A DNA stretch of 64,000 bases from positions 1-64,000 of the forward strand of contig CAIPKV010000085.1 of NCBI GenBank assembly GCA_903865745.1, read 5' to 3'. The notes under the pieces are model-generated. The model saw only the letters and a program-made list of their open reading frames with translations, made no database searches and was not told where the DNA came from. Below are positions 16,221 through 63,916 of the stretch, one piece after another. A program made the position numbers and the translations under genes. The DNA comes from an uncultured Verrucomicrobia subdivision 3 bacterium. Lineage in GTDB: Bacteria; Verrucomicrobiota; Verrucomicrobiia; Limisphaerales; UBA11358. How positions within the stretch are numbered: the stretch's first letter is position 1; each line of letters opens with the position of its first letter.

Positions 16221-16702
16221 TTTTATCAGCGTGAATTGCCTTCGTATCCGCCACTTTGTCGCCGCGCCGGGCGTTCCCTAATCTCCGGCATATCCAAAAA
16301 AATTCCGGCGGAAAACTTCCGCGGCACCTTTAGCGGAGGTCTATGACCGCTGTTCGCATGCCGGCGCTGGGCTGGACTGTCTCTTTTTGATCACCGACCA
16401 CCAGAAAAAGTGCAAAAGCCCAGTTTTTTTGATGTTTTTGCCCTATCCGGTGCCACTTTAGCCTCGGCCGAGGCTCCATTAGTCGCGAGATATGGGGCAT
16501 TCGTCCCTACTGGTGAGGTATTCGTAGCTAGAGATGCGACAACAGTAGAGATGGATGAGGCACCAGAAGGGACTTAGGTGACGCCAGTGAGCGCGAACGG
16601 CGGATGAGTGAAATTTTCGGTCAGGCTCATCCAGTCAACCGTCCTGACAATGCCGTTTAAAAATCAATCGCTCCGGTCGCCGGGCTTTGTTATGGTTCTG
16701 GC
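16221..16702. other. Intergenic region with nested inverted repeats, no confident gene
   Basis: No recognisable RNA family or protein. Palindromic elements: GCGGAA-AAC-TTCCGC (16308-16322); the perfect palindrome AGCCTCGGCCGAGGCT (16460-16475); GGTGCC (16449-16454) paired with GGCACC (16559-16564); GTCGC (16482-16486) with GCGAC (16536-16540); and a 13-nt arm pair GTCCCTACTGGTG (16503-16515) / CACCAGAAGGGAC (16561-16573) with one mismatch. A weakly coding-like frame without ATG runs 16347-16577 on the plus strand (possible GTG start at 16409, 56 codons, ending GAFVPTGEVFVARD...EAPEGT). It may be a decayed gene or chance. The glgB promoter must lie in or near this region but none is clear. Confidence 0.4.
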
Positions 16703-23403: not shown

Positions 23404-23802
23404 GACGGTTCCGCGCCAGCCTGCCGGCAACTTTCGCCAGCCAGTGACGGTTCCACCCGACCCTTGGGCGGACTTGCCCGGGGCTTGGGCGGTTTCGCCA
23501 GACCCTCTGGAAGTTCCTACCCAGCATCGGGAGGAACCTCTGAGTCGTCTGGAAGTTTCTCTGAGTGGCTCAGAAGTTCCTCCGAGCCGTCTGGAAGTTT
23601 CCCTGAGCGGCTCAGAAGTTTCTCCGAGCCGTCTGGAGGTTTCCCTGAGTGGCTCAGAAGTTCCTCCGAGCCATCTGGAAGTTTCCCTGAGCGACTCAGA
23701 AGTTTCTCTGAGCCATCTGGAAGTTCCTACGAACCACTCAGAAGTTCCTACCAATGGCCTGGAAGTTCCCCGGAATCATGGGAAAAGTGCCAATTTCGTT
23801 TA
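23404..23802. repeat. 21-bp phased palindromic array 1
   Basis: Cores start at 23509, 23530, 23551 and every 21 bp to 23782 without any indel; degenerate older units continue upstream in the same phase to about 23404. That gives roughly 19 units. The core is GGAAGTT(T/C)CC or AGAAGTTTCT, an inverted repeat (GGAA/TTCC, AGAA/TTCT). Between cores, CTGAG-NGG-CTCAG forms a second inverted repeat. In the middle, units alternate so that a 42-bp higher-order period is seen, suggesting recent duplication of unit pairs. The stretch is open in several frames on both strands simply because 21 is a multiple of 3; I do not regard these frames as genes. A small helical+FnIII-like gene begins 84 bp downstream. 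Confidence 0.9.
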
Positions 23803-23886
23803 AAAAGGTCCGCCGGAGGCCAAAACGATCCTTTTCGGTCACGGTAAACGTCCACGCTAGAAAACTATTAGTTATAAATTGAACCT

Positions 23887-24582
23887 ATGAAAAGAGACCC
23901 GATTAAAAAAACTGACCTGGCCTTCGCGGCCCAGTTGCTCACCTGCAAGACCAACCTCCCGGCGCACGCGGCCACGCTGAAATTAACCCTCGAACAAGTG
24001 GCTTCGCAGGCGGCGGATGCCTTGGCCTTCAACTACTGGCTCAGTAGCAACACTGCCATGCACCGCGACGCCCAACAGTTCACCAAGTGGAAGAATTTGA
24101 TGCGCAACGGCGGCGCGGTGGGCATGGACAAGGAACCGGGCGTGCCGGTCTTGCCCGACCCCGTGCCGCCGGTGGACCCGGGCATTGAGGATCGGCACCG
24201 CGCCCTGATTGTGTCCTGCCATAACAATCCTGCGTACAACATCGCCATTGGCACGGCGTTGGACATGGAAGGCGCCGAGATTACGCCGCCGGATTTGACC
24301 CTGGTGATGCCGTTGCTCACGTTGACCATCAGCGGCAATCAGGTGGTCATCGGCTGCGGCTGGCAGGGGTATCAAGCCTATCTGGACCAGGTGGAACTCC
24401 AGGTGGACCGCACCGATGGCAAGGGTTACGTCCTGCTGACCTATTGCACCACGCCCGGCTTCACCGACCCCACGCCATTCCCCGCCGTGCCGACCAAATG
24501 GACTTACCGCGCCATCTTCCGCCTGAACAACGCGCAAGTCGGCCAATACAGCAGCCCCGTCAGCATCATGGTGGGAGTTTGA
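23887..24582 (+). CDS. Small helical + fibronectin-III-like protein linked to array 1
   Basis: 231 residues, no signal peptide or membrane segment. The N-terminal third is predicted alpha-helical and begins with a KTDLAFAAQLL motif shared with the protein at 33249 (SDLAFAAQM). The middle is a Pro-rich linker (PVLPDPVPPVDPGIED). The C-terminal half is beta-rich and fibronectin-III-like, with GWQGYQAYLDQVELQVDR, TPFPAVPTKWTYRAIF and a terminal VSIMVGV. The C-terminal half matches the 33249 protein closely (WQGYRTFLDLCEFQVDRRDG, TPFPAVPTIWQYRAIY, VSVTVGV), so the two are paralogues. It lies just downstream of array 1 in the same orientation. I do not recognise a function. Confidence 0.75.
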   Translation: MKRDPIKKTDLAFAAQLLTCKTNLPAHAATLKLTLEQVASQAADALAFNYWLSSNTAMHRDAQQFTKWKNLMRNGGAVGMDKEPGVPVLPDPVPPVDPGIEDRHRALIVSCHNNPAYNIAIGTALDMEGAEITPPDLTLVMPLLTLTISGNQVVIGCGWQGYQAYLDQVELQVDRTDGKGYVLLTYCTTPGFTDPTPFPAVPTKWTYRAIFRLNNAQVGQYSSPVSIMVGV

Positions 24583-32813: not shown

Positions 32814-32943
32814 ACCACGACGCTAATCCAAGTCCAGTTTGTGAACTTTTCCTGTAGCCACCTCGCTTTTCCCTCGCGGCGGTCATCGATTAAGAATCTT
32901 TTCCTCATCCGCCCAGCCTAAAAGCGTCGTCGGCAGCCGTTAC

Positions 32944-33132
32944 TTCTCATCCCTCGGATTCGGAGGAACATCCTTGAGACTTAGAGGGATATTCCCCGGA
33001 TTTTGCGGGACGTTCCTAGCATTCCGAGGGATATCCCTAGGGTTATCAGGAACGTCCCCCGTCTTTCTAGGGACGTCCCTAAAACTACGGGGGACGTCCC
33101 CTGTAATCCGAGGGATGAGCATTTTAGCCGGA
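32944..33132. repeat. 21-bp phased palindromic array 2
   Basis: Cores start at 32965, 32986, 33007, 33028, 33049, 33070, 33091 and 33112, exactly 21 bp apart, with a degenerate unit at 32944. Core: GGGACGTCCC, a perfect 10-bp palindrome. Variants include GGGATATCCC (still a perfect palindrome), GGAACGTCCC, GGGACGTTCC and GGGATATTCC. The remaining 11 nt differ from unit to unit. It precedes the helical+FnIII-like gene at 33249 by about 117 bp in the same orientation. Confidence 0.9.
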
Positions 33133-33248
33133 TGTTGAGCTGGAAATGAGTTAAAATCGTTCATTTAGCCGAGTTTAACCATTATTCAGACGATTTAGCT
33201 TGTTGCCCGGGGTTTTCGGCGCATGCTGCTGGATACACCCCAAAAACC

Positions 33249-33959
33249 ATGCCCAAAAAAGATTTGATTCCCCAAAGCGACCTCGCCTTCGCGGCGCAGA
33301 TGCGGACGTTCCAGCGCAATATCGCCAGCCACGCCGCCAATCTCAACGTCACCGCTGAGCAGGTGGCAGGGCAGTCGGCGGATTCGGACCACTACAATTA
33401 CGTCGTGATGAGCCAGCAACAGATGCTCAACGTCAGCAAAGCGTGGACGATCTGGCGGAAATCGGTCCGCAAGGGTGATTCGACGACGGACGGCACCGGG
33501 CTGGAGCAGACCATGCCCAACACCATTCTGTCACCGGCCCCGCCGGCGGTGTTGCCGGGTGTGGAAAAGCGGTTTCGCGCGCTGCTGCGCCAGATCAAGG
33601 CCAGCCCGAATTATAAATACACCATTGGCGTGGAGCTGGGCATTGAGGCGGCGAGTTTGACCGCGCCGGACTCTGCCGTGCTCCAGCCAAATATCATCGT
33701 ACGCGTCGTTGGTAGCCGGGTGCAGTTGGTCTGGGATTGGCAGGGCTACCGGACGTTTCTGGACTTGTGCGAGTTTCAGGTGGACCGTCGCGATGGCTTG
33801 GGTTTTGTGCCGTTGACGCATAGCGTTCACCCCGGTGGCTGGGATTTAACGCCGTTTCCCGCCGTGCCGACAATCTGGCAATACCGCGCCATCTACCACG
33901 CGAACGGCCAACGCATCGGCCTCTGGAGTCAGATTGTAAGTGTCACCGTGGGAGTTTAA
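33249..33959 (+). CDS. Small helical + fibronectin-III-like protein linked to array 2
   Basis: 236 residues, soluble, no signal peptide. N-terminal helical region with PQSDLAFAAQMRTFQRNI, Pro-rich linker (SPAPPAVLPGVEKRF), then a beta-rich C-terminal half with VWDWQGYRTFLDLCEFQVDR, TPFPAVPTIWQYRAIY and VSVTVGV. It is a clear paralogue of the 23887 protein, with about the same length and the same three-part plan. It is followed 29 nt later by the convergent end of the debranching-enzyme gene. Function not recognised; the link to a 21-bp array is positional. Confidence 0.75.
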   Translation: MPKKDLIPQSDLAFAAQMRTFQRNIASHAANLNVTAEQVAGQSADSDHYNYVVMSQQQMLNVSKAWTIWRKSVRKGDSTTDGTGLEQTMPNTILSPAPPAVLPGVEKRFRALLRQIKASPNYKYTIGVELGIEAASLTAPDSAVLQPNIIVRVVGSRVQLVWDWQGYRTFLDLCEFQVDRRDGLGFVPLTHSVHPGGWDLTPFPAVPTIWQYRAIYHANGQRIGLWSQIVSVTVGV

Positions 33960-33988: not shown

Positions 33989-36900
33989 CTAAGCCAGTAG
34001 TTGCCAGACGCGCAGGGCCTCGGTCACGCCCCAGGCTTGCGCGTCGCAACCGCGTTGGGTGTGCGGGGCGTCGCCGTCGAGGATTTCGGGAATCTGGCCG
34101 AGACAACCTTCGTTCAACAATTTCTCCGAGCTGCCCAAATACGCCTTGGCTGCCGCGCTGGCGACCGGTGAAAAATCCCACGCCCGCGCGAGCGCTTCGC
34201 AAAAAGTCGGGAACGTCCACGTCCACGCGGTGCCATTGTGATAGGCGGGCTTGCGGCGCGTGTCTTCGTCGCCCGCGTAATGTGGATAATACGGTTCGCT
34301 CGGGTTATTAAGCAAATGGCCGTCGCGCCAGATGGGCAGCGGCACGGTCACCGGCAGCGGCGCGAGCGAGCGCAAGGCGCCGGGCACGATGAGATATTTG
34401 CGGGCCGCCGCGACACAGCGCCGGGCGCGTTCGCCGGTGACGAGCCCGAGGCTGACGGCGAAGAGGCAATTGCTCCGCAAGGCGTCGCTGGCCGTGGCAT
34501 CGCGAGCGATGACGTTGGCTTTGGCAATCAACACGTCGGCGAACCAGCCTTCGTTCTCGAGCCAGAACAATTTTTCAAAGGAAGCCGTCGCGTGATCGGC
34601 GAGGTCGCGCCATTTCTTTTGGTCGGGCTTGGCGGAAATCTTTTCCAGCAATCGCAACAGCCGGATCCACAGCACCTGGATCTCGACGGGATAACCTTCG
34701 CGCGGCGTGCCGGCGGGATAATTGGTGTCCATCCACGTGAAATGGCTCGGGCTCCAGATGAGTGCGGAATCGGCGTCCATGCGGATGCCGTTGGGCGTGC
34801 CTTTGGCATAATTCTCCGCGATGCTCGTGAGGACGTCGCGGAGGGTGCGGCTGCCATCCGCGCGCACATTGAAAAACTTCTTATCCGCCAAGTCGTCACA
34901 CACGACGGCGAACCACAGCGGTGCGTCGGAGGTGTCGCGATTCGAAACGTCGTTGCCATGAATTGTGTTGGGCAGCGTGCCGTCCTTTTCAAACTTGGCG
35001 AAGGTGAGAAGCAGTTGCTTCACGTCGTCCGTCAGGCCCGCCGCCAGCAACCCGCGCGCGCTGATGAGCGAGTCGCGGCCCCAGTCCAGAAACCACGGAT
35101 AACCGGCGATGACCGTCTTGCCGTCGTCGCGGCGCACGACGAATTGTTTGGCTGCGCGGGCGAGTTGCGCGGGGAAATTTCCGATTTCCGATTTCCGATT
35201 TCCGATTTCGGGGATGGCGGTGGAATTATTCAACTCCGCTGTAAGGACGAGCGTCGCGTCGGCGCCTTTGGTTAAGGGGATTTCAAACCAGCCGGGGCTG
35301 TACGCGTCGCCGCTGCCGGTCTGGCCGCGCGTCTGCTCGACGGGATGCGGGATGTTCTCGCACCATTCCGGCTGCGGATGATATTCGCCCGCGTCAGCGA
35401 AAACGTGCAACTGGCGGTCAACAGCGGGCGTGAAGGCAAAGCCGGTGAAGTTTTGAGTTTTGAGTTTTGAGTTTTGAGTGGCGTGGCAGTTCGAGGAGAA
35501 ATGGTAGTCTGCACCGCCGTTGCGTTTGGTCTCGCCATGGAAATTCCGGTCCTCGATGTCCACGCGCACGGTCAGGCGGACGTCGGCGTCGGCGGGCAAT
35601 TGTTTGCCGCGCGCCAGTTTTGCCGTCGGGCGGCGGAACTGAAAGACGGTCGTGTTTTTACCATCCACCATTTCGGCGCGAAGCTCGATTTCCACCGTAC
35701 GGCTATCGCCGGCGTTCGCGACAAAATTCCAGATGGCGGGCGCACCGGACTGGAACGACGCGAGGTTTTTGAAATCGAGCGGCGAAAGAAAACCGTCGGC
35801 GTTCACCCAGACGCGGAGGCGCTTCACAAACACGTGGCGATCTACGGGAACAGTGGGGTTCAGGTTCGCGCCGAGAGCGCAGTCGTATTTGGAATTGATG
35901 CGGCCGAGATCAACGCCAAGCCGCGCCATGCCGCCGATACCGTTCGTGAGCAAAACCAGGTCGGTGGGGCGAGGATGGAGGATGGAGGATGGAGGATCGT
36001 TGGCGAGAAAGCGCACGGCCGCCGAAACTTTTTGCGAGGTCGTGGCGTAGCGCTCCAAGGTCAAATCCGCTTCCGCCGCCGAATCGCGCGGGGCGAAGCA
36101 GGCGATATGGCGGTTGCCCACGGCAATGGACTGGACATGAACCGCTCCTGGTTTTCCATTCTGTATTCTGCCTTCTTCCTTCTGCATTTCCAACGTCGCC
36201 CGGAACGGCGCGCTGTCCTCCACCAGCAGCCAGTGACCTGGTGGCACGAGCGTGACGCGGCGGGCATCGAGCAAGGTCCAGCCGATGACGCGCGGGAAAA
36301 CGTTTCCAGCGGCAACCTCGGACAACACTGCGGCGAACGACGTTTTGATTGTGCGGGCGGCGAACTCGCTGGCGGCGGCGAGAAAATTCTCCGGCGAACT
36401 TTCAACTTGTTGCGCCAGCCAGCGCCAGTCGAGATCGTCCGCGGTTTCGGCGGGCATGATTTGGTTCAACGACTCCAGCGCCCACGCCGCCTGCGCGCGG
36501 GTGCGACGATAGGCATCGCCTGCCAGACCGACCGGCTGCTCGGTCGGCGCGAGACAGTAAGCCGCGCCCGGCATCAGTATGAACTCGGTTGCAGCGTTGG
36601 TGACGGACAGTTTCGGCAAGGGCTGGCCGAGCAGGTCAGTTATGAGTTTTGAATTTTGAGTTTTGAGTTCAGGCAGCGGCAGCGTGTTTTCTCTTTCAAG
36701 GTCCGTGTTTATCAGTACCAGCACGGTGTCCTTGCCCTCGGCGGATTCGCGGAGCAGGGCATAGACGGGTGACTCGGGGGCGCTTAGGCGCGTGAGCTTT
36801 GCGCCATCGAAGAAACACGGATGGTCGGCGATGAGCGTGTTCAATCGCGCGAGTTCGGGGACGAGGTTGGCGACGTTGTCCCAGTTCAAGCCGGTGTTGC

Positions 36901-38296
36901 CGTGGACGCGGATTTTTTCGGTGGCCAGCCATTCCACGCCGTTGGTGAAGCCGAACCCACCGCTCGGACTCGTGAGCGCACACAGGCGGTTGCGCAGGAG
37001 CGACCACGCGTAGCCGCGTTTCGCGAGGCGGTCGTTATCATGCGTCTCGGAATAATGGACGTAGGTGCCGACGCGCTCGTTCTGGCGGTTCGCGTAATCC
37101 AGATACCACGCGACTTCCTTGCCGCTATAATTTTGAAAGAGTTCGGAGTACGCCCATTGCATCCCGCCTTCGGTCAGCAATAGTTCCGTGGCGTCCCAGG
37201 AACCGCCCAGACCTTCGAGCAGAAAAATGGTTTCCGGAAATTCCTCTTGCACGCGGGCGACGATGTATTGCCACGCAGGCGCGGGCACCTTATAGCCGGC
37301 ATCGCAGCGGAAACCGTCCACGCCGCGCCGGCACCAGGTGATGAGCGAGTCGGCGATGAGGTCCCACAGCTTGACATCGTGCTGTTCGAGTTCCACCAAA
37401 TCTTCCCACACGGTGCCCCACGCGCCGGGGCTGGCGAATTCGCCATCGGGCTGTTTCAGGAAGAACTCGGGATGATTCTCCTGCAAGGTCGAGCCCCAGC
37501 CGGTGTGGTTGATGACAATATCGATGAACACGCGCGCACCGAGCGAATGCGCGGCGTAGGTCAGCTCGCAAAACTGGTCAATGCCCGTGGTGCGCTTATC
37601 GAACTCCACGAGCGCGGGATCAACCGCCGTCAAATCGAGCGCGGCATAGGGACTGCCAAAACGTCCGAAGCGCGCATAAGTCGTCGGCGTGGGATGCACC
37701 GGCAGCAGATGAATAATGCGGCAGCCGAGCCGGTTGATGATGAAGGGAAGTTGCTTGGTAAGGTCGCGGAATTTCCCCGAAGGCGGCAGCGTGGCGTAAC
37801 CTTCAGCCTCAAGGGATTTTAATTGGATGTCCAGTTTTTCATCGGCAGTCGCGGCGAGCGTTTTGGTGGCGCCGAACAAGCGCGTGAAGGCGCAATAGAT
37901 GGTGTTGGCGGTGCGGGAAAAGTTCGGGTGGACGGAAATGCCCACGTCCGAACCGTCCGGCCAGTGCTGCCAGTTTTTATCGTCGAGCAGATAGGCTTTG
38001 GCTTTGAAGTAGCCGACCTCGGCGAACGGCAGTTCGAGCGTCCAGCCATCGGCGGTGGGCTGCATGGGAATATCGCGCCAGGAAGAATTAGCGACGACCG
38101 ACTGGCCGGCGTGGGCGGAGATGATTTCCTGGCGGCGGGCGGCGGCGCGACCGAGATTGGTACGGAGCCGGGCGGCCCGGTATTTGGGCGCACCCGGACT
38201 TTTATCCGTGCGAATGGTGAAAGTGATTTTGTCGCCGACGAAGCGCACAAGGCGGTCGCCGGCGGCCGGAGACATGACTGGTTTGGGTAAATCCAC
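33989..38296 (-). CDS. Two-domain glycogen debranching enzyme (GH13-like + GH133)
   Basis: 1435 residues. The N-terminal half is a GH13 alpha-amylase-type domain: DIVINHTG, GVDGFRCDAGY (nucleophile D332), LLEGLGG (acid/base E361) and HYSETHDNDR. The C-terminal part is a GH133 amylo-alpha-1,6-glucosidase (WGRDSLISARGLL with D1075, NTIHGNDVSNRDTSDAPLW). The plan resembles the bifunctional eukaryotic debranching enzyme: transfer a short oligosaccharide, then hydrolyse the remaining alpha-1,6 branch. Bifunctionality is inferred. With glgB it makes a branching/debranching pair. At least five in-frame heptanucleotide repeats are translated in linkers: PEIGNRKSEIGN, QNSKLKTQNF, PPSSILHPR, MQKEEGRIQNGK and LKTQNSKLI. 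No signal peptide; cytosolic. Confidence 0.92.
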   Translation of the reverse strand: MDLPKPVMSPAAGDRLVRFVGDKITFTIRTDKSPGAPKYRAARLRTNLGRAAARRQEIISAHAGQSVVANSSWRDIPMQPTADGWTLELPFAEVGYFKAKAYLLDDKNWQHWPDGSDVGISVHPNFSRTANTIYCAFTRLFGATKTLAATADEKLDIQLKSLEAEGYATLPPSGKFRDLTKQLPFIINRLGCRIIHLLPVHPTPTTYARFGRFGSPYAALDLTAVDPALVEFDKRTTGIDQFCELTYAAHSLGARVFIDIVINHTGWGSTLQENHPEFFLKQPDGEFASPGAWGTVWEDLVELEQHDVKLWDLIADSLITWCRRGVDGFRCDAGYKVPAPAWQYIVARVQEEFPETIFLLEGLGGSWDATELLLTEGGMQWAYSELFQNYSGKEVAWYLDYANRQNERVGTYVHYSETHDNDRLAKRGYAWSLLRNRLCALTSPSGGFGFTNGVEWLATEKIRVHGNTGLNWDNVANLVPELARLNTLIADHPCFFDGAKLTRLSAPESPVYALLRESAEGKDTVLVLINTDLERENTLPLPELKTQNSKLITDLLGQPLPKLSVTNAATEFILMPGAAYCLAPTEQPVGLAGDAYRRTRAQAAWALESLNQIMPAETADDLDWRWLAQQVESSPENFLAAASEFAARTIKTSFAAVLSEVAAGNVFPRVIGWTLLDARRVTLVPPGHWLLVEDSAPFRATLEMQKEEGRIQNGKPGAVHVQSIAVGNRHIACFAPRDSAAEADLTLERYATTSQKVSAAVRFLANDPPSSILHPRPTDLVLLTNGIGGMARLGVDLGRINSKYDCALGANLNPTVPVDRHVFVKRLRVWVNADGFLSPLDFKNLASFQSGAPAIWNFVANAGDSRTVEIELRAEMVDGKNTTVFQFRRPTAKLARGKQLPADADVRLTVRVDIEDRNFHGETKRNGGADYHFSSNCHATQNSKLKTQNFTGFAFTPAVDRQLHVFADAGEYHPQPEWCENIPHPVEQTRGQTGSGDAYSPGWFEIPLTKGADATLVLTAELNNSTAIPEIGNRKSEIGNFPAQLARAAKQFVVRRDDGKTVIAGYPWFLDWGRDSLISARGLLAAGLTDDVKQLLLTFAKFEKDGTLPNTIHGNDVSNRDTSDAPLWFAVVCDDLADKKFFNVRADGSRTLRDVLTSIAENYAKGTPNGIRMDADSALIWSPSHFTWMDTNYPAGTPREGYPVEIQVLWIRLLRLLEKISAKPDQKKWRDLADHATASFEKLFWLENEGWFADVLIAKANVIARDATASDALRSNCLFAVSLGLVTGERARRCVAAARKYLIVPGALRSLAPLPVTVPLPIWRDGHLLNNPSEPYYPHYAGDEDTRRKPAYHNGTAWTWTFPTFCEALARAWDFSPVASAAAKAYLGSSEKLLNEGCLGQIPEILDGDAPHTQRGCDAQAWGVTEALRVWQLLA
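35177..35211. repeat. Heptanucleotide repeat (ATTTCCG type)
   Basis: ATTTCCG four times and ATTTCGG once, inside the debranching-enzyme gene; translated on the minus strand as EIGNRKSEIGN. Confidence 0.9.
35451..35478. repeat. Heptanucleotide repeat (TTTTGAG type)
   Basis: Four perfect TTTTGAG units inside the debranching-enzyme gene; translated as QNSKLKTQN. Confidence 0.9.
35971..35998. repeat. Heptanucleotide repeat (GAGGATG type)
   Basis: GAGGATG three times and GAGGATC once, inside the debranching-enzyme gene (PPSSILHP). The same unit recurs at 47519 and 49669. Confidence 0.9.
36157..36191. repeat. Degenerate heptanucleotide repeat (CATTCTG type)
   Basis: CATTCTG, TATTCTG, CCTTCTT, CCTTCTG, CATTTCC inside the debranching-enzyme gene (EMQKEEGRIQNG). 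Confidence 0.7.
36641..36668. repeat. Heptanucleotide repeat (TTTGAGT type)
   Basis: TATGAGT, TTTGAAT, TTTGAGT, TTTGAGT inside the debranching-enzyme gene (KTQNSKLI), the same unit family as at 35451. Confidence 0.8.
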
Positions 38297-38582
38297 CTGC
38301 GAAAGTTTTAACAGGAAGCGGTGCGGGGCGAAATGAAAATTGAAGGGGCGAACCCAATGAATTTTAAAACCAAGAACGCGTTGGAGGATTCCGGCGCATT
38401 GCGAGTTTATGCCGGGACTTTATCCGCAATTTTAAAAGATGAACGCAGGTTTTGTTTTTTAATCGGCGGAATCGGCATCCTCTGCGGGAAAAACCAAGTC
38501 AAGGTTTGTGAAATGTAGAATCCCACTTCTTTTTGCGGCACGCGCGGTCGTTGGGACGCCGGCTTTATCTGTTTTGCTGCCG
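38297..38582. other. Intergenic sequence before array 3
   Basis: Nothing gene-like recognised; it leads directly into array 3. Confidence 0.4.
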
Positions 38583-38960
38583 GGCAAACGTGGTTTCTTG
38601 CTGGGTAAACGGGTTTGCTTGGCAGGCAAAGGTGTTTGCTGGCCGAGAAAAGGTGATTTCCCGGCGGGCGAATGGAATAACCCAGCGGGCAAGCCAGCTT
38701 GCCGCGCGGGCAAAGCCGTTTACCGGCTGGGCAAGCGTGTTTTCCCCTCGGGCAAGCGCAATAATCTCGCGGGCAAACGGAATTACTTGCCGGGCAAAGC
38801 GGTTTGCTAGGCAGGCAAAGGCGTTTGCTTGCCGAGAAAACGAATTTTCCCTTCAGGCAAAGCTGATTTCCCTGCGGGTAAACGGGTTTACCGCGCGGGC
38901 AAAGACGTTTTCCCTCGGGGCAAACGCGTTTGCCTGAGGGGAAAAGACGTTTGCCCGAGC
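38583..38960. repeat. 21-bp phased palindromic array 3 (18 units)
   Basis: Eighteen units begin at 38583, 38604, 38625 and every 21 bp to 38940 with no indel. Consensus: a 6-nt arm GGCAAA, four variable nt, the complementary arm TTTGCC, five variable nt. Arms co-vary in several units: GGTAAA/TTTACC (38877), GGCAAG/CTTGCC (38688), and GGCAAA/TTTGCC forming the perfect palindrome GGCAAACGCGTTTGCC (38919). A transcript would be a chain of 6-bp tetraloop hairpins. Frames through it (heptad pattern such as GKR-PAGK) are by-products of the 21-bp period. Unlike the other arrays, no helical+FnIII-like gene follows; the next gene is at 39292. Confidence 0.92.
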
Positions 38961-39291
38961 CTTAATATGCCAAAAACACCCTCCAAACGGCAAAATCTGC
39001 CACTTTTAGCCGTAAACTGGCCAAACTGACAAGCAAGTGGCGATAGTTGAACACTTAATTTGGTTTCGGAGGTACCGCCGGAAATAGTCTAGGTTTTTGT
39101 CGCCGGATTAAATTCGCAAACCTTTCTAGTCCAGCGGGGCGGTGGACGACCTAAAGTCATTCACACAGGTTTCGTGTATTTAGCGTCTTTAGCGGTAAAA
39201 CCTTTCCCTCCAAAATCAATTAGCCCTTTCTTTGGGTTGCGTTGACGGCGGGTGCGCTTTAACTTGGCAACGAATTTGCTGATTTTCATCA
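38961..39291. other. Intergenic sequence after array 3
   Basis: No gene seen. It contains the CACTTTTAGCCG motif at 39001-39012; a similar CATTTTAGCCGG follows array 2 at 33120-33131. The promoter for the 39292 gene should be here but is not obvious. Confidence 0.35.
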
Positions 39292-40143
39292 ATGGCGACG
39301 CCTACATTAAATCCCGGTGAAGAAGCTCAATTGTTGCAGACAATTGAGATGTTCGAGGTGATTGTGCAGTCGCAATCGGGCGACACGCAATCTTTGGAAA
39401 TCTTGAAGGAGGCTTACTCGAAGCTGGGGCGCGAGGATGACGTGGTCAATACGTCCAAACGGATTGCGCAGGCGTACCTCCAGCAGGGGCAGTTGTCGTC
39501 GGCCATCCTGGAATATGAGACGGTCTTGCAGCGCCGCCCGGATGATGCGGATGTGCGCACGGCGCTGAAGCAGATTGAGGATAAGGCCAGCAGCGCCGTA
39601 GTACAGCCATCGCAGGAATCCGCCCCCGTAGCTTCCGTCGCCGATAACGCCAATGCCGCCGCGCGCCGCAAGGTAAAGCTGGCGGGGGATGAGGTGGATG
39701 ATGGGCGCAAGACGATGTATAAGGTTTTCGTCGAGAGCAAAATCATTACGGCGGGGGATTTTGATCTGTGCTGGCGTAATGTGGATATGACGCTGCCGCC
39801 CACGGACCCAATCGAGCCGTTTATCCAAATGCTGCATGAGAAGGGGATTTACCTGATCGATAAATCGCTGCGGTTGCTGTCGGATAAGTCGCGTCTGGCG
39901 TATCTGCCGATGGAACGTTACGACGTGGAGATGGATCTGGTGCGCGGGTTTCCGGCGGATGTGTGCCGGCGCTGGTGCGTGCTGCCTTTCGACCGCATGA
40001 GTAAGGCGATTTTGGTGGCGACGGCGAATCCGTTTAATCAGCAGGCGGCCAAAGAACTCGGTGAGGCGACCACGCACCGGTTGCTGTGGTACATCTCGCC
40101 GCCAAATGACATCGTGGCCAACCTGCGCAAAGCTTTCCGCTGA
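39292..40143 (+). CDS. TPR protein with GspE/PilB N-terminal (MshEN-like) domain
   Basis: 283 residues, soluble. The N-terminal half has tetratricopeptide-like helices (about 12-110: SLEILKEAYSKLGREDDVV, AYLQQGQLSSAILEYETVL). After a flexible linker, the C-terminal part (about 135-283) resembles the N-terminal domain of type II secretion/type IV pilus ATPases (LPMERYDVEMDLVRGFP, CVLPFDRMSKAILVATANPFN). MshEN domains can bind c-di-GMP; whether this one does is not shown. The gap to the ATPase gene is only 2 nt, so the two are coupled. Probably a regulatory or adaptor partner of the motor (inference). Confidence 0.8.
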   Translation: MATPTLNPGEEAQLLQTIEMFEVIVQSQSGDTQSLEILKEAYSKLGREDDVVNTSKRIAQAYLQQGQLSSAILEYETVLQRRPDDADVRTALKQIEDKASSAVVQPSQESAPVASVADNANAAARRKVKLAGDEVDDGRKTMYKVFVESKIITAGDFDLCWRNVDMTLPPTDPIEPFIQMLHEKGIYLIDKSLRLLSDKSRLAYLPMERYDVEMDLVRGFPADVCRRWCVLPFDRMSKAILVATANPFNQQAAKELGEATTHRLLWYISPPNDIVANLRKAFR

Positions 40144-62496: not shown

Positions 62497-62661
62497 CAGG
62501 GGTGAGGACGGTCTTCCCAACCTCTGACTAAAAATCCCTTCGTGCCAATGGGTGAAATTCGGGTCTGTCCCAACCCAAAAACCGCAGATTCGGCCTAAGC
62601 CCACCATTGCCAACGGCTTAACCATATTTACCGTCCGCCAACTGTTGTTTTCTATACACGT

Positions 62662-62880
62662 AAGCTCCCGCTTGCGTCGCACAAGCTCCCGCTTGCATGA
62701 CAAAAGCTCCCGCTTATGACGCGCAAGCTCCCGCTTCGGCCGTCTAAGCTCCCGCTTGTGTGACAAAAGCTCCCGCTTGGCTCACGCAAGCTCCCGCTTG
62801 TGACGTTCAAGCTCCCGCTTTAATCAGCCAAGCTCCCGCTTTGGCGACCCAAGCTCCCGCTTAATGGCCGCAAGGGAGTC
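62662..62880. repeat. 21-bp phased array 4: invariant 12-mer plus variable 9-mers
   Basis: AAGCTCCCGCTT (arms AAGC/GCTT, TCCC loop) occurs ten times without a mismatch at 62662 and every 21 bp to 62851, then a degenerate terminal copy AAGGGAGTC at 62872. The ten 9-nt intervals are all different: GCGTCGCAC, GCATGACAA, ATGACGCGC, CGGCCGTCT, GTGTGACAA, GGCTCACGC, GTGACGTTC, TAATCAGCC, TGGCGACCC, AATGGCCGC. The pattern (fixed repeat, unique intervals, degenerate last repeat) is CRISPR-like in form but much shorter, and no cas gene is present. It is followed about 420 bp later by the helical+FnIII-like gene at 63302. Confidence 0.95.
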
Positions 62881-63301
62881 AGTCCGGGCGGATGGCTCAC
62901 CCCGCAAAACCACCCGCCGCCGGAAAACTCCACGGTGGCCGTTCGCCGTCGGCTGCGGATTCTTCATCGGGCTTAAATGACCGCTTGGTTGGGAAAGTGC
63001 AATATCCGGCTGGACCGCAGACCGCCCCTGGGCGGCACCCGCCATGATCCAAACCCGAATACCCCTTTGTTTACCCCGTTTTAGGGTGCCGACCAGCCCT
63101 ATTTTGGTATTCCTTTCGCAACTTATGAACAGTTGTAAGTTATTTATAATCAATTAATTATAATAAAATAAATCGTGACAATCGGGGTGGAGGCAGGCTA
63201 TGATAAAAAGCGTGAGCCAACTGGCATCATCAAAGCCCCGTAGGGTATAGTGGGATTTGAGATGAAACAGGTCCGTTCACAAATAAGGACAAAAGAAAGT
63301 T
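62881..63301. other. Leader region between array 4 and the FnIII-like gene
   Basis: No gene recognised. An AT-rich stretch (63140-63175) is followed by a run that includes AAAAAGCGTGAGCC and CCCCGTAGGG before the gene. A purine-rich AAGAAAG lies 4 nt upstream of the ATG and may act as ribosome-binding site. Confidence 0.4.
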
Positions 63302-63916
63302 ATGGACCATGTAGGTTTAGACTTCGCAAACAAAAAGCCGAACGACCTGTTCAAGTTCGGCGATAAAGTTCACACCGCCCAGTTGGCCAATGTCCCGTTG
63401 TATGCCGGGTGTTTGATTACGGCGGTGATGCTCAACACGGCCAATCAGGATTACGGTGCCAAGATTGATGCAAGAGCCGAGGGCGGACCCATCTCAACGA
63501 AGGTCGCGTTAGCTTCCCGTGCGGTGCTCCTCGGCCTGCTCTATCAAATTGCCGCGTGGCTCGAAGGCAAGGCGGCCGGCAACGCGGATACCATCAACCT
63601 CGCCGGTTTTGATACCGTTGAACACGTTTACTCGCCCCAGACGATTCTGCTTACGCCAGCCATCAAGGCCATCCTGAACTTCATGACCACGCAATTGAAA
63701 TTGCGCGTCACGACGGTGCCCAATGCGAATTCCTTCGAGGCGCAATATCGCATCGCCGGTGGCGCGTGGGTGCCGTGCGGTTCCTTCCCCAACTCCCGTG
63801 CCATCATCATCACCGGACTGGTGCCGGGCGTGATGTACGAATTCCGCGTGCGCGCCGTGGGCGGCCTCACGGGTTGGTCGGCCTGGAGCGATACCGCCAG
63901 CCACATGTGCATGTAA
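63302..63916 (+). CDS. Helical + fibronectin-III protein linked to array 4
   Basis: 204 residues, no signal peptide. The N-terminal 125 residues are mainly helical (YAGCLITAVMLNTANQDYG, VALASRAVLLGLLYQIAAWLEG). The C-terminal part is a fibronectin type III domain (PNANSFEAQYRIAGGAWVPC, RAIIITGLVPGVMYEFRVRA, GGLTGWSAWSD). The N-terminus is not obviously homologous to the 23887 and 33249 proteins, but length, helical-then-FnIII plan, orientation and position downstream of a 21-bp array are the same. Function unknown. A clear terminator follows. Confidence 0.75.
   Translation: MDHVGLDFANKKPNDLFKFGDKVHTAQLANVPLYAGCLITAVMLNTANQDYGAKIDARAEGGPISTKVALASRAVLLGLLYQIAAWLEGKAAGNADTINLAGFDTVEHVYSPQTILLTPAIKAILNFMTTQLKLRVTTVPNANSFEAQYRIAGGAWVPCGSFPNSRAIIITGLVPGVMYEFRVRAVGGLTGWSAWSDTASHMCM

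Follow-up and report, generated by a model that had tools for sequence, protein, structure and literature searches.

A strand-symmetric, period-locked 21-bp array in a Verrucomicrobiota genome: a dispersed element whose units may be kept alike by exchange on both strands

REP, BIME and REPIN sequences, which are associated with RAYT transposases, are dispersed extragenic palindromes that occur in many copies, and REPs share one sequence genome-wide and track a RAYT. CRISPR arrays are regular, and combine palindromic repeats with variable parts and a conserved block at one end, while heptanucleotide and other bacterial simple sequence repeats (SSRs) and minisatellites are tandem repeats of the slippage type. 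The nearest described system, judging from the portion of its published account drawn on here, is that of the palindromic amphipathic repeat coding elements (PARCEL), dyad-symmetric tandem repeats of patchy distribution which are thought to have spread within and between genomes (PMC2996958). The LIMP palindromic repeats of Lobosphaera mitochondria are dispersed, and the part of their description used here reports shared or reverse-complemented flanks for some of them (PMC4524435).

The array considered in the present work lies in a Verrucomicrobiota genome, within a window by which is meant the whole 64-kb stretch of DNA that was analysed, and is best read as a period-locked, strand-symmetric, dispersed array element. 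The array and its surroundings comprise the following features.

33989-38296, minus strand: left neighbour, glycogen debranching enzyme (GDE_N, GDE_C, alpha-amylase)
38342-39227, no strand: ~885-bp stretch containing the array, which several relatives lack at this intergenic position
38569-38581, no strand: left-end box CTGTTTTGCTGCC, resembling the left ends of the C79, C59 and C13 arrays by eye, from printed sequences
38583-38960, no strand: strand-symmetric 21-bp array of 18 units, the array under study
38982-39053, no strand: right-end block common to the C79, C49 and C13 array copies, with a weak conserved stem CCACTT...AAGTGG
39292-40143, plus strand: right neighbour, TPR and MshEN protein, followed by a PilB/T2SSE ATPase

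PARCEL and the 21-bp arrays both have repeat DNA with dyad symmetry, but PARCEL, in the portion of its account drawn on here, consists of a 25-residue amphipathic motif within open reading frames, one recognisable protein motif, whereas the present arrays are mostly intergenic and have no shared sequence, and their period is 21 bp rather than the 75 bp that a 25-residue coding unit requires, with stop codons in five of the six frames of 38583-38960. The resemblance to REP and REPIN sequences is that of dispersed, multi-copy extragenic palindromes; here, however, the units differ between arrays, so that no one palindrome is common to all copies, and the genome contains only two Y1 transposase genes, one of which has a lag-21 region nearby (L238, C16). 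Spread driven by a RAYT was rejected because there are only these two genes. LIMP repeats are likewise dispersed and palindromic, some with shared flanks, but they are organellar, and neither a 21-bp period nor a linked gene family is among the traits given in the part of their description used here. CRISPR arrays resemble the present array in regularity, palindromic repeats, variable parts and a block conserved at one end, but its repeats are not identical, and in place of unique spacers of repeat-like length there is a variable part of ~9-10 nt at most. Degeneration marks the outermost units on either side alike (0.51 and 0.54, versus 0.75 in mid-array), and an age gradient was rejected, no CRISPR-like polarity being seen. 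SSRs are also tandem repeats, and 7-bp SSRs occur in the window, but the array is palindromic and gives no lag-7 or lag-14 signal. These 7-bp repeats, three of them perfect and one 88%, lie within the glycogen debranching gene, at 35177-36669. No description of such 21-bp arrays was found in the titles and abstract openings listed by searches of the open-access literature.

The preliminary description of the array, which reported 18 units at an exact spacing of 21 bp with zero indels, is borne out. The identity at lag 21 is 0.63, compared with 0.257 in shuffles (the maximum of 2000 shuffles being 0.325), and the strongest lags are 21, 42 and 63. The consensus unit, CGGGCAAACG|CGTTTGCCCG+g, has 10/10 complementary pairs and one unpaired base (+g), a degree of palindromy with P = 0.0005 under column permutation with the axis re-optimised. 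Since all ten pairs are complementary, the parts of the unit that had been regarded as a “centre” and a “spacer” also belong to the palindrome, nor is variation restricted to that 4-nt centre and 5-nt spacer, as had been proposed, because arm columns 1, 3, 4, 6, 11, 13, 14, 15 and 16 vary too. Conservation is more unequal between columns than in 60/60 simulations of neutral tandem duplication. The array also contains a near-duplication of nine units (189 bp), visible as an identity of 0.693 at a unit distance of 9 versus 0.57-0.63 at distances 1-8.

The preliminary description had further claimed that where one arm of a unit changes the other changes to match, and this does not hold. GGCAAA is altered in the left arm of nine of the 18 units, and an exactly complementary right arm accompanies the change in two of the nine, units 6 and 15; perfect 6-bp dyads are present in 3/18 units (6, 15 and 17), and within-unit pairing (80/108) is close to the value obtained with the arms permuted (77.4 +/- 2.1, P = 0.16). 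A test over 76 trimmed array cores gives no excess of pairing within units: the difference between within-unit and distant pairing is -0.002 (P = 0.67), although an imposed compensation of 5% would have yielded P = 0.01 and one of 10% P = 1e-8. In the same cores, swapping half units among units leaves the predicted fold energy unchanged (lower in 37/76, P = 0.90), and 44 palindromic arrays show no difference in pairing between near arms and far ones (near exceeding far in 24/44, P = 0.195). Untrimmed arrays do fold better than column-permuted versions of themselves in 75/88 cases, as do trimmed cores in 60/76, but because half-unit permutation abolishes the effect, this signal is read as the result of linked half-unit variants and degenerate end units, and not of pairing. 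The proposed dyad exists at the level of the array, and its arms differ compensatorily between homologous copies, but the inference of RNA-hairpin selection fails. On the reading favoured here, the arms match because the whole array is kept alike on both strands, and not because hairpins in individual units mutate in step.

The homologous copies can be recognised from their ends. The right-end block recurs after arrays on C79, C49 (reverse) and C13; its identity to the C79 copy is 77-82% for the block at 38982-39053 and for C13, and 88-89% for C49. The pattern AACGGCAAAAN{1,8}CCAC occurs at exactly four sites, which are the array under study and the C79, C49 and C13 copies, and the core AAACG|CGTTT is common to all four. 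The arms differ from copy to copy: they are GGC/GCC at 38583-38960, GGT/ACC in C79, GCA/TGC in C49 and CT/AG in C13, so that, in that order, the sixth pair from the centre is C-G, T-A, A-T and T-A, and the seventh G-C, G-C, C-G and C-G, while at pairs eight and nine the three other copies depart in places from Watson-Crick pairing. The kinship of the C59 array to this set is only loose. Folded as a consensus RNA, the right-end block has 12 pairs, of which one is compensated among the four sequences, too little to claim. Between the recent duplicates L018 and L019 the gene and flanks are 86-91% identical and the array body is wholly rewritten, with array lengths that differ by one 21-bp unit.

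If exchange within an array operates in both orientations, then linked variants in left half units should recur in the reverse-complemented right half units of other units, and this was the subject of a two-strand test. In 52 palindromic arrays the nearest-neighbour identity of inverted half-unit haplotypes is 0.740 versus 0.714, with inverted sharing in 38/52 (P = 3.7e-5), individually in 24/52; in non-palindromic arrays the sharing is absent (11/24, P = 0.86). The control with a wrong axis gives a weak positive result (31/52, P = 0.042), and the array at 38583-38960 by itself gives no significant signal (P = 0.35). The occurrence of half-unit variants on both strands fits homogenisation of the two strands together, and arm changes produced by exchange between units, which the preliminary description had named as the observation that would count against it, therefore provide the better account.

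The element is not confined to one site. A scan of the window at lags 6-63 picks out five regions, and only at lags 21, 42 and 63; besides the array under study they are the following.

16430-16594, no strand: weak, degenerate sister array between dephospho-CoA-kinase-like and glgB-like genes (names by eye)
23434-23815, no strand: sister array upstream of an FN3-like gene (23887-24582, plus strand)
32933-33139, no strand: sister array upstream of an FN3-like gene (33249-33959, plus strand)
62600-62917, no strand: sister array upstream of an fn3 protein gene (63302-63916, plus strand)

In the last of these, at 62663-62873, ten units combine an invariant AGCTCCCGCTT with a highly variable 10-nt remainder. 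Across 20 stretches of the same genome, covering 398 kb of 3.63 Mb, 20 regions were found at lag 21 and almost nothing at other lags; two of the 20 are a single array split by a 1-bp shift (L199), one (L206:15051), judging by eye from the translation, encodes a coiled coil, and one (L198:17105) is weak, which gives a corrected count of ~17 arrays, or ~150-160 if extrapolated genome-wide. Four congeners have 0 (G001), 0 (G009), 1 (G013) and 0 (G020) lag-21 regions per 100 kb. Among other relatives there is one region in 260 kb of G292, one in 80 kb of G014 and four in 60 kb of G041, at least two of which resemble simple-sequence repeats by eye; the samples from relatives are mostly non-random, and in the case of G014 and G041 entirely so, being stretches of contigs chosen for the family gene or another earlier match. 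The high density of 21-bp arrays is mostly a property of this genome. A palindromic terminator-like repeat (GGCGCGAAGAGG..., for example at L185:5560-5600) is likewise scattered through this genome and those of many congeners.

Unit sequences differ from array to array, and the 21-bp period is kept in nearly all. Neighbouring units are only 57% identical, yet the phase is seldom broken: clear 1-bp phase shifts occur in 2/34 arrays of this genome, a fairer check than the 1/616 blocks with phase changes, a count which is biased by the selection of arrays. When columns are permuted and the axis is re-optimised each time, 44/65 non-redundant arrays are palindromic at P < 0.05 and 36/65 at P < 0.01, the remaining 21/65 lacking significant palindromy; within this genome 24/35 arrays are palindromic. 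Conservation is symmetric about the dyad axis in 64/88 arrays (P = 4e-7). The core motif of the array under study is found in three arrays only and never as a single site, and a regulon of single sites was therefore rejected.

Three of the window arrays lie directly upstream of small genes, at 23887, 33249 and 63302, the first two of which are paralogues with 42% identity. The product of the first is the following.

23887-24582, plus strand: array-linked protein with N-terminal helices and a C-terminal FN3-like sandwich in the predicted model (pLDDT 93, pTM 0.65)

Its Foldseek matches with meaningful overlap are FN3 domains, with phage tail proteins at low coverage; profile searches gave no convincing E-value for any PDB relative, the two paralogues of the window match no Pfam family, and eight array-linked proteins are without a PADLOC match. 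A two-row profile identifies ten family copies in the genome, and all ten have an adjoining 21-bp array, upstream in each case. Once relatives and the 75 loci obtained by scanning named genomes are included, there are 128 gene-bearing loci, of which 90, full-length and non-duplicate, were used and 38 were dropped before the count. Identity at lag 21 reaches at least 0.55 upstream of the gene in 61 of the 82 loci with at least 400 bp of upstream sequence, and the best lag is 21, 42 or 63 in 73/82; none of 89 downstream regions passes the lag-21 test. Exceptions include L127 (Haloferula luteola), with a near-identical array of 22-bp period upstream of the gene, and L126 and L151, with 8-bp SSRs. 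Conversely, 7/25 regions of this genome lie, by our reading, upstream of an FN3-like gene (window 23437, 32933 and 62605; L190; L198:7476; L205:2994; L206:8336); beside window 62605 the region listing gives array-overlapping open reading frames, and the gene at 63302 comes from a separate analysis.

No gene of the FN3-like family lies between 38960 and 39292, so that the array under study is a solo copy. The start of the glycogen debranching gene and the leader of the TPR-MshEN gene form blocks which are at most 18 bp apart in at least 5/18 relatives (L022, L025, L027, L031, L035), and these orthologous sites are free of the array. In G009 there is a different insert of ~450 bp, and in G005 another array lies upstream of the orthologous gene, with the debranching gene start not found next door. 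Since the ~885-bp insertion exceeds the length of the array, the array may have arrived with other sequence; no target-site duplication was seen in the examined junctions. A candidate link to type IV pili, three solo arrays being close to pilus-type genes (some of them named by eye), could be chance. Arrays also occur within a gene: in the alaS of this genome (C59, L204:2005-2342) an array is in frame and gives rise to a run of heptapeptide repeats in AlaRS, and the same loop holds other arrays in 2/29 other alaS loci scanned, in G017 (L210) and G020 (L215). In G026 and G013 (L216, L220) the loop contains a candidate C-terminal part of a RAYT/Y1 transposase, by eye.

The explanation which the evidence on balance somewhat favours is that of a dispersed element, each copy of which would be a tandem array of ~12-18 units of 21 bp, the unit being nearly its own reverse complement. 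Exchange within the array in both orientations, by template switching, fold-back or inverted gene conversion, would keep the units alike, and a variant that wins in one arm would also win in the other. Each copy would therefore drift to its own palindromic unit, with arms that agree array-wide and not unit by unit, while the spacing stays at 21 bp, equal to two turns of B-DNA, and the sequence is free to change. Insertion, or local origin, would have placed arrays in many intergenic regions, frequently right at the 5' side of small FN3-like genes, and the array at 38583-38960, a solo copy between the glycogen debranching gene and the pilus-type gene, would most likely be a passenger with no specific function at that site. 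Array palindromy, the absence of unit-level covariation, inverted sharing, symmetric conservation, the shared right end with different arms in four copies, the rewriting between L018 and L019, the array-free sites, the density relative to congeners and the alaS arrays all count in favour of this explanation. Against it count the lack of a direct sign of movement, of a target-site duplication and of a responsible transposase (the search being for Y1 genes), together with the non-significant result for the array itself, the wrong-axis control, the non-palindromic arrays and an insertion longer than the array. Some selected role is suggested by the unequal columns at 38583-38960 and by the placement of arrays upstream of FN3-like genes, where they may be kept as phased leader DNA.

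Selection of another kind would be at work if the array were a set of operators, with a dimeric DNA-binding protein or filament on dyads two helical turns apart, as the preliminary description also envisaged. Such sites are possible, and this explanation, while unlikely, carries appreciable weight: if each half site is selected alone, then the arms will match the half site of the array without unit-level compensation, and the 21-bp phase, the dyads and their symmetric conservation, column inequality that none of the 60 simulations reached, and the position upstream of FN3-like genes would all follow. The half sites vary between arrays, however, so that many readers would be needed; the core motif is nowhere single, one array lies inside alaS, half-unit variants are common to both strands, and no regulator was found beside the array at 38583-38960. 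It is improbable that the arrays represent a new class of element, period-locked but free in sequence and expanded to well over a hundred in this genome, rewritten on both strands at once by dedicated machinery and serving as private palindromic addresses, two helical turns apart, that are read by, or regulate, the paired FN3-like protein. An ordinary neutral minisatellite, grown from palindromic seeds by direct tandem duplication and drift with neither two-strand exchange nor function, is also improbable; it would account for internal duplications and for the fact that only 15/88 arrays exceed the neutral model in column heterogeneity, but not for symmetric conservation, inverted haplotype sharing, arms rewritten together between near-identical duplicates, or a phase seldom broken among such dissimilar neighbouring units. 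Translation into heptapeptide repeats, which would account for the 3n period, is very improbable: it is realised in alaS, in frame here and in G017 and G020, and stop-free frames number 205 against 173 expected, but coding in general is unsupported, since the array under study has no gene model and carries stops in all but one frame (1, 1, 6, 1, 4, 0), 1-bp shifts occur in arrays of this genome, and the period is 22 bp at L127. Least probable of all are hairpins with a 6-bp stem and tetraloop, selected in RNA or single-strand DNA of a transcript, which despite the perfect consensus palindrome, matching units 6 and 15 and the better folding of whole arrays over column-permuted ones are rejected by the absence of unit-level pairing in the array itself, in the 44 palindromic arrays and in the 76 cores, by fold energies indifferent to half-unit permutation, by zero Rfam matches to a described RNA family within the window and by the absence of a promoter-like site at the array.

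If the favoured explanation is right, then two-strand homogenisation can mimic compensatory covariation in tandem arrays in which no hairpin is selected, which calls for caution in applying covariation tests to repeats. The analysis also links 21-bp arrays to an uncharacterised family of FN3-like genes across the Verrucomicrobiota, and it raises the testable question of why two helical turns should be kept when every base may change.
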